From positions 1 to 47,006 of IMG/VR virus record IMGVR_UViG_3300036806_000141: a stretch of DNA of 47,006 bases; one strand, given 5' to 3'. The notes below the pieces were generated by a model, which ran no database searches, had not been told where the DNA came from, and saw nothing but the letters and a program-made list of their open reading frames with translations. Numbering within the stretch: the first letter of the stretch is position 1; each line of letters starts with the position of its first letter. The stretch is from a virus. The position numbers were made by a program, and so were the translations under genes. Shown here in pieces: positions 43,116 to 47,006 of this stretch.

Positions 43116-43412
43116 TCAATCACTTAGCCCTTGGATGCGCGCCAGTTCCTGACGTAATTCAGCCTTGGATAGGCTGGACAAGGGCACTTCACCGGGCGGG
43201 GCCGGAGGCTCGGCATGTCGACCCACCATGCCCATGATCTCAGCGAGGGTTCGAGCCGCCGCAGCACGTGCTGCGGCAGGGGCCAAAGGGTCCGAACAAA
43301 TCGTGCGCAAAGTGTCACGAACAATGGTCTGGTCATCCAGACAACTTGGTTTGATTTCACTGTCACCATAGCTACGGGCCGCCGGCCGTTTGTCTGTCTG
43401 ACGGCGCGTCAC
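43116..43412 (-). CDS. Terminase small subunit candidate, 98 aa, GTG start
   Basis: The sequence SCLDDQTIVRDTLRTICSDPLAPAAARAAAARTLAEIMGMVGRH, then Pro-rich, then LSSLSKAELRQELARIQ, resembles small terminase-type DNA-binding proteins: a helical N-terminal region and a short C-terminal helix that would contact TerL. The GTG at 43412 is chosen because it forms a GTGA overlap with the preceding stop; upstream ATGs at 43481 and 43502 are alternatives but would overlap that gene much more. Role: recognise the packaging start site and hand DNA to TerL. Confidence 0.6.
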   Translation of the reverse strand: MTRRQTDKRPAARSYGDSEIKPSCLDDQTIVRDTLRTICSDPLAPAAARAAAARTLAEIMGMVGRHAEPPAPPGEVPLSSLSKAELRQELARIQGLSD

Positions 43413-43810
43413 TCCAGCGCCTGGCGCGCCTGGCGCACCGCCTCCACCCAGGTTAGGGGATCGTTGTCCCTGTTGTCCCATGCACGAGACAACGCCAGAC
43501 AAGGGATCGACAACCTGAGCGCACCAAACCGGAGGCGCCGGTAGAGATCGAGGGCCAGGACCTCGGGCGCAACGTTACCCTCCGCCTCCAGCTTGCGCAG
43601 CATCCGCCGGGCCGCCCTGGCGGGCGATGGCGCAACCGCGGTGTGCTGGTTTGTGTGCAGGTAGCAATGCGTTGTCCCAGCTCTGGCAACCCGACCGCAC
43701 CGACACCGGAGCAAAGCGCCCCACGACTGACGGTGCTGCGCCAAAGCCACCAGACTGTTTGGATGCCCGCGCCAACCACCGAGACCGTTTCCCGTTCGCT
43801 CGATTGCCAT
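43409..43810 (-). CDS. Hypothetical late protein with zinc-finger-like Cys/His cluster, 133 aa
   Basis: The protein has a CRCGRVARAGTTHCYLH cluster (C-x-C...C-x-x-H) resembling the HGG-type proteins found next to small terminases, where a Cys/His knuckle binds DNA. The N-terminus contains GWRGHPNSLVALAQHRQSWG, similar in layout to HGGYR-family sequences. The C-terminal helical part is Leu/Arg-rich. It is the first gene of the leftward late operon, coupled by GTGA to the terS-like gene. The ATG at 43810 is preferred as the first Met of the conserved region. Confidence 0.55.
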   Translation of the reverse strand: MAIERTGNGLGGWRGHPNSLVALAQHRQSWGALLRCRCGRVARAGTTHCYLHTNQHTAVAPSPARAARRMLRKLEAEGNVAPEVLALDLYRRLRFGALRLSIPCLALSRAWDNRDNDPLTWVEAVRQARQALE

Positions 43811-43915
43811 GAGCTTTGTCCCTATCGCTAAAGGACACGCTGGACAACCCACAGTCTGTGGGTCTAGGTTGCGCTTGCCACCCAAGGCAAACCGACCAAA
43901 CCACTAGAGGACCAG
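43811..43915. promoter_or_regulatory. Divergent regulatory gap of late operon and CobS-like gene
   Basis: A perfect 15-bp dyad, CCCACAGTCTGTGGG (43848-43862), lies midway between the two divergently transcribed operons. A second short dyad (TTGCC...GGCAA) and two TTGTCC/GGACAA hexamers are also present. The dyad shares 12 bases with the site at 15186-15197. Promoters are expected for both directions but no strong -35/-10 pair is seen. Confidence 0.55.
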
Positions 43916-45412
43916 ATGACCACCAAACCAAAGCGACCAAGCGAAATCACGCGCGACGCGTTGCGTCGTGCCGTTCGCAACCATCCATCGTGGGCTGCCA
44001 CGATGGGCCAGCCGAACCTGATTACCGTGGCGGAGCTGCGCCAGCTCGCAGAAGACCTCGGGCTGGATGCAGACCGCATCCAGCAGAAAGCCCTGGCCAC
44101 GTGGCACGCCACAGGCGAAACGCCAGAGGACACCGCCCCCACACCGGAGGACAACAGCACCATGCCGCTGGACAGCGCACCGGCCGCGGGGCCGGCAGTA
44201 GATACAAACGACACAACAGACGTAGTCGCGACCATTTCGAGCCTGCGGCAGGACATACTGGACCATGGTTTCGCCAGTGTGACCGACCGGCTATCGGCTT
44301 TGATCGAGGCCGCGGCAAAACCGCCTGTTGTGATCGAAAAGATTGTGGAACGCGTGATCGAGCCGCCGCTTGCTGTCGGCGTGCACGATCTGGCCAAGGT
44401 GCGCACCGAAAGCTGGGCCAGCTTGTTCGGCGTGACCGGGCCGCTGAGCTCGCGCACCGTAACCGTATGGGATCATCCAAACGCACCCAAGGCTAATCCA
44501 CACTATGTGTTCCCTGATGCGGAAAGCGCTCTGGCGCTGTCACAGATGGCCAGGAGCGATGCGGCGCGTGCGGCGGGCGCACCCGCCAAGCATGTATTGC
44601 TGCACGGACCGGCAGGCACCGGCAAGAGCACCTGGGCCAGGGAATTCGCCGCGCGCACCGGCCGGCCGTTCGTGAGTATCCCATTGAACGACGGAATCGA
44701 AATGGAACAGCTCATCGGCCAGACCGTGCTGGATGGCCACGGTGGCACGAAATGGCAGGACGGCTTGCTGCTGTCGGCGATGCGCCAGCCCGGCATGGTG
44801 ATTTGCCTGGATGAGGTTGGTGGCATGCGGCCGGCCGTTGGCGTGGCGTTGAACGGCTTGCTGCAAGACATGGTTTACTTTGTCCCTGACACTGGCGAAC
44901 GGCTTGTCGTCGCGCGCCATGTTGTGTTCATCGCCACGAATAACGTCGTGCTGGCGGAGTCGGGCGCATCGACCGGCTACGTTGGCGTGCAGCGGCAAAA
45001 CCGCGCGTTTGCTGACCGCTTCGGCGCATCAATCGAAATCGGCTATGCGCCGGCCGCCACCGAAAGCGCCTTGCTGGTGGCCTATACCGGTTGCACGCCG
45101 ACACTGGCTGACTTGCTCGTGCAGGTTGCCGTTGTCACGCGGGCAAAGGCACAGATGGAGGAGCTGACGCATGGAATCGGCTTCCGTCGTTTGCTGGCAT
45201 GGGCGGAGGCATTGACCGATGGCAACCCGGCCGAAATCGCGTTCAAGAGTTGCGTGCTGAACACCGCGCCGGCCGTTGACAGCGAGCCGTTGCGCCAGCT
45301 CGCACTTGTGGCCATCGACCCGGCCGCAATCGAGGCCGCATTGCGTGGCCAGAAACCCCGCGTGCTGTCGCACGCCGCGACGGAATTCACTGACGTTTCG
45401 GACGAGGCTTAG
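43916..45412 (+). CDS. CobS/MoxR-like AAA+ ATPase, 498 aa
   Basis: The AAA+ domain (about 200-460) shows Walker A HGPAGTGKSTWA (231-239), Walker B MVICLDEVGG, sensor 1 VFIATNNV, and an Arg-finger region QNRAFADRFGASIEI. These match MoxR/CbbQ/CobS-type ATPases. The N-terminal part has a small helical domain (EITRDALRRAVRNHPSW, ITVAELRQLAEDLGL) and a Pro/Thr linker. In the bacterial pathway CobS partners with CobT in cobaltochelatase; phage copies of these pairs are known (cobS in cyanophages), with an uncertain role. The CobT-like gene follows directly, spaced by 4 bp, which supports a functional pair. Confidence 0.8.
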   Translation: MTTKPKRPSEITRDALRRAVRNHPSWAATMGQPNLITVAELRQLAEDLGLDADRIQQKALATWHATGETPEDTAPTPEDNSTMPLDSAPAAGPAVDTNDTTDVVATISSLRQDILDHGFASVTDRLSALIEAAAKPPVVIEKIVERVIEPPLAVGVHDLAKVRTESWASLFGVTGPLSSRTVTVWDHPNAPKANPHYVFPDAESALALSQMARSDAARAAGAPAKHVLLHGPAGTGKSTWAREFAARTGRPFVSIPLNDGIEMEQLIGQTVLDGHGGTKWQDGLLLSAMRQPGMVICLDEVGGMRPAVGVALNGLLQDMVYFVPDTGERLVVARHVVFIATNNVVLAESGASTGYVGVQRQNRAFADRFGASIEIGYAPAATESALLVAYTGCTPTLADLLVQVAVVTRAKAQMEELTHGIGFRRLLAWAEALTDGNPAEIAFKSCVLNTAPAVDSEPLRQLALVAIDPAAIEAALRGQKPRVLSHAATEFTDVSDEA

Positions 45413-45416
45413 AACC

Positions 45417-47006
45417 ATGACCACCATCGCATACATCGACGTGGTTTCGGCCGCGCAAGAGACAGTCACGAAGCTGCTCGCCGGCCGTAAGCAATCCCTA
45501 ACCCTGCATGTCGACACCGCCGGAGGCGAAACCGCTGGCGTCTATGTGGAGGCCGCGCGCGGGCGCGTCCGCCTTAGCCTGCCGTCGTTTCCGCCGCATC
45601 ACCGGCTGACCAGGGCGGAGGCGGACCGCTTCGTGGGGTATCTGGCGCATGAGACTGCGCACGTGATCCACACAGATTTCAACCAGTGGGACCGTGCTCT
45701 AACGCTTGGCCCAGTCGTGAAGACGCTCACCAACGTGTTTGAAGACCTGCGCATTGAGCGGGAAGAAATCAGCAACGGGCCGTGGGCTGGCTTCCGGGCC
45801 ACCATCGAAAAGCTGCTTGTCCAGATGGACGCAGATAACCACGCAAAGGCCGCGAAAGAGGGCCAGGGGGAAATCGGCTCGCGGGTGCAGCATCTGCCGT
45901 GGGTCCTGGCACTGCTAGGGCGCCAGGATAACGGGGTGTTTGTCCCAGACCCGGACCGAACGCGTCGCGCCCTGCCGCGAGAGCTGCGCAGCATCGTCAA
46001 CAGCGCCTTGCGCTCCGCCAAGGAAACCAAGAGCACGTGCGATTGCGTGGAGCTGGCGCGCCGCATCGCCAAGCGCCTTGAGCAGGAGGAGGCACGCCAC
46101 CGCCAGGAGCAAGAGCGCCAGGAGGGCCAAGGCAAGCCGCAGGAGGGCCAGGAGGGCCAGGGCAAGCCACAGGCGGGCCAGGAGGGCCAGGGCAAGCCAC
46201 AGGCGGGCCAGGAGGGCCAGGAGGGCCAGGGCCAGCCACAGGAGGGCCAGGAGGGCCAGGAGGGCCAGGAGGGCCAGGGCAAGCCACAGGCGGGCCAGGA
46301 GGGCCAGGAGAGCCAGGAGGGCCAGGGCCAGCCACAGGAGGGCCAGGAGGGCCAGGAGGGCCAGGGCCAGCCGCAGGAGGGCCAGGGCCAGGGCAAGGGC
46401 GCCGGCCGTGGCGTTTGGGACGGCTCCCCGCTGGACTCGGGCGACCTGAGCCTGGACACGGACAGCGCACGGATCGCGGAACGGGAGGGGGCCAGCTTGG
46501 AAGTGCCACCGGAGCACTATGGGCACCGGCGCGGTCCGCACACGCTGGCTGGCGTCGGACGGTTTACCGTGCACCCGGTTCCGGCTGGCGCAACCGGCTA
46601 CGCAAAAGCCGCCCGCGATCGCCTGCCGCGCTCCGCCCTGGTGCACGATCAGATTGCCCAGCTCGTGGCGGCGGAGGAAATCCGCCACCGGGAAAGACAC
46701 CTGACCTCGGGCCGCTTCGACCGTCGCGCCATGGCGCGCGCCGGCATGGGCGGAATTGATGTCTACGCCCGCCGCCGTGTCACGCCAGGGACCGACACCG
46801 CGGTGTGCCTGCTCGTCGACCTGTCCACGTCAATGAACATCAGCAACGGCATGGGCGCCATGGACCGGATCAGCGCCGCAAAAACCATGGCGCTCCACAT
46901 GATCGACGCAATCGAGGCCGCGGGGGCCAAGTCCGCCGTTGTCGGGTTCGGCGATCCACAGAACCAGCAGCATGGTTGCTCGCTGCACGTGATGAAGGAC
47001 TGGACG
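45417..47006 (+). CDS. CobT-like protein: HExxH motif plus VWA domain, C-terminus beyond the window
   Basis: 530 codons are visible and the frame is open at the right edge. The N-terminal 220 residues contain [11 protein letters not shown] (HExxH at 78-82) and a later EDLRIERE (Glu109, possible third ligand), a zincin-like arrangement seen in metallopeptidase/VWA proteins. A long Gln/Gly/Glu/Pro-rich linker (about 229-328) follows. Near 468 begins the VWA domain with the MIDAS motif [10 protein letters not shown] (DxSxS), preceded by DTAVC. The rest of the VWA domain is not in the window. A MoxR-type ATPase plus VWA partner would form a chaperone-like or chelatase-like machine. The ATG starts 4 bp after the ATPase stop. 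Confidence 0.8.
46102..46400. repeat. Degenerate repeat array encoding a Gln/Glu/Gly-rich linker
   Basis: A roughly 300-bp tract of CAGGAGGGC-type 9-bp units interleaved with CAGGGCAAGCCACAG blocks, giving [13 protein letters not shown]-like peptides between the HExxH region and the VWA domain. Internal near-identical blocks suggest expansion by unequal recombination. Confidence 0.9.

Follow-up and report, generated by a model that had tools for sequence, protein, structure and literature searches.

The viral record analysed here (the window, 47,006 bases, which carries integrase, terminase, portal and major head genes) ends in a gene pair that encodes a MoxR/CobS-like AAA+ ATPase and, 4 bp on, a partner joining an HExxH domain to a VWA domain, as the original prediction had read it (Table 1). 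We consider it fairly probable that this pair is an AAA+-driven zincin peptidase or remodeller, with a likely target in DNA replication or recombination, and not a cobalt chelatase. The architecture is already known from group 2.2 jumbo phages, for whose MoxR/metallopeptidase-vWA pair a role in virion assembly was proposed (Iyer 2021, PMC7824862), and the window pair is a member of a real, under-studied family. By published description, the jumbo phage pair likewise sets a MoxR ATPase next to a vWA protein whose N-terminal part is a metallopeptidase domain; the window has the adjacent MoxR-like AAA+ gene and the HExxH domain fused to a vWA (partly seen), but in a 47 kb integrase-bearing record and divergent from the late operon.

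Table 1. Features of the ATPase/zincin-VWA gene pair and its upstream neighbour in the window.
Feature	Coordinates	Strand	Basis
MoxR/CobS-like AAA+ ATPase, 498 aa	43916..45412	+	ORF; Pfam, phrog and NCBIfam searches
Zincin-VWA partner, 530 aa, cut by contig end	45417..47006	+	phrog_1576; alignment of relatives
N-terminal zincin-like domain, residues 1-227	45417..46097	+	AlphaFold2, Foldseek, CobT N-domain match
HExxH, H78 E79 T80 A81 H82 (AHETAHVIH), predicted zinc-binding/catalytic site	45648..45662	+	Conservation
N106-V-F-E109-D110-L-R-I-E114, predicted third-ligand helix	45732..45758	+	Conservation and model
Gln/Gly-rich repeat linker	46100..46402	+	Read off the sequence
VWA domain start, MIDAS DLSTS (D468, S470, S472)	46773..47006	+	Alignment of relatives
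Divergent upstream gene, at most 158 aa, start probably internal	43409..43885	-	blastp

The ATPase has Walker A (GPAGTGKS), Walker B (VICLDE) and sensor (FIATNN) motifs, whose key residues are invariant across relatives, and a CbbQ_C-like C-terminus. It matches Pfam AAA_5 at 6e-22 and CbbQ_C weakly at 2.9e-5, phrog_249 at 5e-38, and the CobS model TIGR01650 at 51.3 bits against a cut-off of 558.55, so that the CobS equivalog threshold is not reached. The partner starts at an ATG 4 nt after the ATPase ORF, and its frame is open to the contig end. It matches phrog_1576 (function unknown) at 1e-23 and, more weakly, the phrog_459 "peptidase" family, which 64 of 78 relatives match. No Pfam family was above cut-off for the partner, VWA_2 appearing at E=0.25 only, and NCBIfam, CobT equivalog included, gave no match to this truncated protein. 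DUF2201_N, a putative metallopeptidase, was rejected as the family, being matched by only one of the 78 members (E=0.009).

The VWA domain was recognised from its motif and from alignment to full-length relatives. An intact MIDAS had been predicted, and DLSTS is indeed present; the remainder of the domain lies beyond the contig end and is complete in full-length relatives such as the viral locus L002. Positions 1-423 of the window were considered as the lost 3' end of this gene and are in frame, but their sequence is unrelated. The expanded Gln/Gly linker of the original prediction proved to be an in-frame EGQ/GKPQ repeat. Related viral contigs (L012, L016, L018, L019, L022-L025), several of them about 50 kb long, also run out at the VWA gene's repeat linker or close to it, perhaps because assembly breaks at the repeats.

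Divergent transcription was likewise borne out by the leftward upstream gene, a counterpart of which blastp locates at the same position next to the pair in about 16 relatives. A sigma-70-like promoter was sought in the gap between this gene and the ATPase and none was found. The 7-mer GTTGTCC occurs at 58 sites on both strands between positions 13 and 44155, where 6.5 are expected from shuffles, and is also frequent in L002 and L006; it may mark scattered sites for protein binding or priming, and an extended operator was rejected, conservation being limited to the 7 bases. Positions 1-180 hold a GGGCGT simple repeat with GTTGTCC/GGACAAC copies, antisense to a primase-like ORF.

The predicted active site is strongly conserved. 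In the first five aligned sequences H78, E79, H82, E109, D110, E114, D468, S470 and S472 are all invariant, and Glu109, the suggested third ligand, is invariant together with Asp110 and Glu114 across 78 aligned relatives, a set pre-filtered for both the HExxH and the downstream Glu motif. As a control for this circularity, loci were recruited by the NxxEDxRIE pattern alone, without reference to HExxH. HExxH was present in 28/28 bacterial and plasmid loci picked by the downstream motif, 24-32 residues before the Glu, and in 24/24 viral loci that have the ED pattern, including 18 that the HExxH pattern of the scan does not pick up; the loci also had to match the window protein in tblastn, so these sets are not wholly independent of that protein. 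Conservation at this level excludes a chance match and upholds the metallopeptidase-like reading of the N-domain.

HExxH is also found in phage partners reached through the ATPase or other parts (Mae-Yong1326-1, RHph_X66, RHph_N1_10, SSU5, ICP2, CRP-810, Camerico, Cantare, MbCM1, T5S1, OspM_OC, ChisanaKitsune, syn9 and pJN2-26) and in the partner from HCTV-2, a haloarchaeal virus (Saparoviridae). The third-ligand motif is altered in some of these carriers (ICP2, Camerico). Phages nickie (L089:3983-6067) and BUCTxx99 (L096:3983-5968) keep the pair and have lost the HExxH, which reads SEISK and REVST, respectively, as in a pseudo-enzyme; the pair thus functions without a peptidase site in some lineages.

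An AlphaFold2 model of the N-domain, built from 78 sequences, was obtained with high confidence (pLDDT 95.4, pTM 0.91). It runs from three strands to helix 66-85, which carries the HExxH, and on to a backing helix, 99-120, which carries Glu109, so that sequence and secondary-structure order agree with a gluzincin-type layout (HExxH, downstream Glu, sheet before the active-site helix). Foldseek against the PDB gave no match below E=0.001; the weak matches repeatedly include metallopeptidases (selecase, abylysin, jannalysin, CapP, SPRTN, MATCAP and BepA), with minigluzincins reaching a probability of 0.54. Against BFVD, viral "CobT"/VWA proteins are matched down to 1.7e-11, with SprT and IrrE-like proteins further down. 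The retention of HExxH and the E/D residues in sets picked by another motif, the confident model and the recurrence of metallopeptidases among the weaker Foldseek matches favour a peptidase-remodeller; the missing PDB fold match below 0.001 and the loss of HExxH in nickie and BUCTxx99 count against it.

The original prediction took the N-domain to be foreign to CobT, and in this it was mistaken: homology to authentic CobT is end to end (hhalign probability 97%, 215 columns), the solved CobT N-domain (PDB 21vu_H) is matched at 9.2e-5, and PF06213 matches 48 of the 78 relatives. The peptidase idea was to fall if such an alignment was found and the HExxH was not conserved in relatives. The alignment occurs, but the HExxH is conserved in relatives and absent from CobT (0/15 authentic sequences at the aligned position, sampled from one class, that of an Acidiphilium MAG), and the peptidase idea therefore survives. 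By our reading of the sequences, a Gly preceding the HExxH, an Asp following it and the Glu are set 13 and 22 residues apart in the window protein and CobT alike, and in CobT the two His are replaced by Ala/Ser and Arg and the Glu position is variable. In an unrooted tree the CobTs form one group (100/100) on a long stem joined among HExxH rows, and nickie and BUCTxx99 stand apart within the phage-plasmid group, at modestly supported forks. On the simplest reading of these sequences, CobT looks like a relative whose zincin site has decayed; because the tree is unrooted, we infer the direction of this loss.

Related pairs are found in several settings. CobS-CobT (TIGR01650/TIGR01651, PF06213, PF11775; PDB 9uka, 21vu) likewise combines an AAA+ protein with a VWA protein whose N-domain is homologous throughout, and differs in the missing HExxH of CobT, in the absence of CobN from the window and in the CobS score of the window ATPase. 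NorQ-NorD and CbbQ-CbbO activases (PDB 9qhd) also join an AAA+ protein with a CbbQ_C domain to a VWA adaptor; the NorD N-domain is not matched by the zincin profile. T4-like cyanophages encode a CobS and "peptidase" pair (phrog_249, phrog_459) with HExxH that is very distant in sequence from that of the window. IncC plasmids and pGSUB1 carry an ATPase-DUF3150-VWA module, likewise an HExxH-VWA protein (HEAAH and EDCRIE in IncC) with an AAA+ gene nearby, which differs in the DUF3150 gene and, in IncC, the ssb-bet-exo genes that lie between the two. The gene order is ATPase, hypothetical, ssb, bet, exo, DUF3150 and VWA with HEAAH in IncC, and ATPase, WGR, DUF3150 and VWA in pGSUB1. Direct tblastn of the window protein gave no plasmid relatives; these were reached via DUF3150. 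The ATPase-DUF3150-HExxH-VWA module was seen in bacterial and plasmid loci (L114:2446-6569, L110, L120, L163:3175-11168 and L164:4489-9141). Relatives of DUF3150, on which a literature search found nothing, occur in 1118 plasmid records, 969 of them predicted conjugative.

A related ATPase lies near the VWA gene on the same strand in 94 of 97 phage loci (upstream in 44, downstream in 50), which favours an AAA+ motor with a zincin-VWA co-factor; Listeria phage relatives of the ATPase, with no evident adjoining VWA partner, were not counted. Among 17 annotated phages, 15 have product names in their flanks that denote replication, recombination or allied nucleic-acid functions (ligase, DNA polymerase III, primase, DnaB, gp46/47, sliding clamp, integrase), and none has a virion gene named there; the tally is one of product names, over flanks of unequal length, from records some of which are close kin. 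In cyanophages the pair sits in a conserved replication region, between gp46/47 and sliding clamp genes. L002, L010, L007 and others have a primase-like gene convergent with the pair, and the left end of the window has a homologue of it; we read the gene product as a primase from its sequence and not from a family search. The flanks in 15/17 phages, ssb-bet-exo in IncC and the convergent primase-like gene point to a target in replication or recombination; against such a target, the tail-fibre end of the late operon adjoins the pair upstream in the window, and terminase genes lie downstream of it in L003. Gene neighbourhoods favour neither published role.

In the mechanism we propose, the ATPase would form a ring, as expected from the MoxR, CobS and NorQ families, and the VWA domain would hold a protein, or the ring itself, through its MIDAS. 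ATP hydrolysis would remodel the bound protein and hand it to the N-terminal zincin, whose active site is predicted from conservation and the model and which would cut the protein so presented. The target, the weakest step of the scheme, would be a host or phage protein of DNA replication or recombination, as the neighbourhood suggests. In this scheme the pair is not a cobaltochelatase, and authentic CobT is a relative with a decayed zincin site.

The published alternative to this scheme is that the pair is a viral CobST that joins host CobN and makes cobalamin during infection, the "peptidase" label being a mistake (Liu 2021, PMC8651126). Homology of the N-domain and VWA to CobT, the resemblance of the ATPase to CobS and existing phage annotations speak for this proposal, which we nevertheless regard as very improbable. 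Authentic CobT lacks the HExxH that viral copies keep, the ATPase, at 51 bits, falls far short of the 558-bit CobS cut-off, and CobN, for which the original prediction had asked, was found neither in the window nor in 27 related viral records (some of them fragments), all of which disfavours a cobaltochelatase and agrees with the prediction of a different machine. Escherichia, Klebsiella and Salmonella phages carry the pair and IncC plasmids the module, whereas an E. coli control genome had no CobN match. One Acidiphilium MAG (L105, L134) holds authentic CobT (827 bits) beside the HExxH version. The phage Mae-Yong and syn9 partners do not match the CobT equivalog, and that of ICP2 reaches 98.8 against 759 bits; no paper on a CobNST structure came up in a literature search. 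Between the peptidase label of Iyer 2021 and its rejection by Liu 2021, the pattern of HExxH conservation, HCTV-2 included, favours the peptidase, and the usual B12-enzyme label of the relatives is probably wrong.

A chaperone or peptidase that processes structural proteins during virion assembly, as proposed for the jumbo phages, would suit the shared architecture and the position of the pair, which adjoins the late operon in the window and has terminase genes close by in L003. We judge it unlikely, given the contrast between virion and replication/recombination genes in the 17 annotated phages and the presence of an HExxH-VWA gene with a nearby ATPase gene on plasmids that form no virions, one of the IncC group and pGSUB1. 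The anti-host or counter-defence protease of the original prediction has patchy carriage among phages and mobile plasmids in its favour, as well as the jumbo-phage SprT/ArdC-type zincins thought to target host proteins (Iyer 2021, PMC7824862); it was not sustained, since PADLOC matched a generic ATPase only and the neighbourhoods, that of the cyanophages included, point to replication and recombination, and we rate it as quite unlikely. Somewhat less doubtful, though still improbable, is a remodelling chaperone whose HExxH binds a metal, either structural or for delivery. Two phage lineages retain the pair without HExxH and CobT works without it, but Glu79, a residue that in zincins serves catalysis rather than metal binding, is conserved to the same degree as both His.

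The AAA+-driven zincin peptidase or remodeller may belong to something wider. We advance only tentatively, as possible but rather doubtful, a broad family of AAA+-driven zincin-VWA proteases of bacterial and archaeal viruses and conjugative plasmids that acts on replication and recombination complexes, with CobT as a descendant that lost the protease site. If true, this would explain the origin of the CobT N-domain and would give cyanophages, haloviruses, vibriophage ICP2 and IncC plasmids an uncharacterised enzyme that is testable via one residue (E79 here). Viral "cobST" is often tallied in viral ecology as a B12 auxiliary metabolic gene pair, and should the partner prove to be a protease, these tallies and the B12 story would have to be revised.
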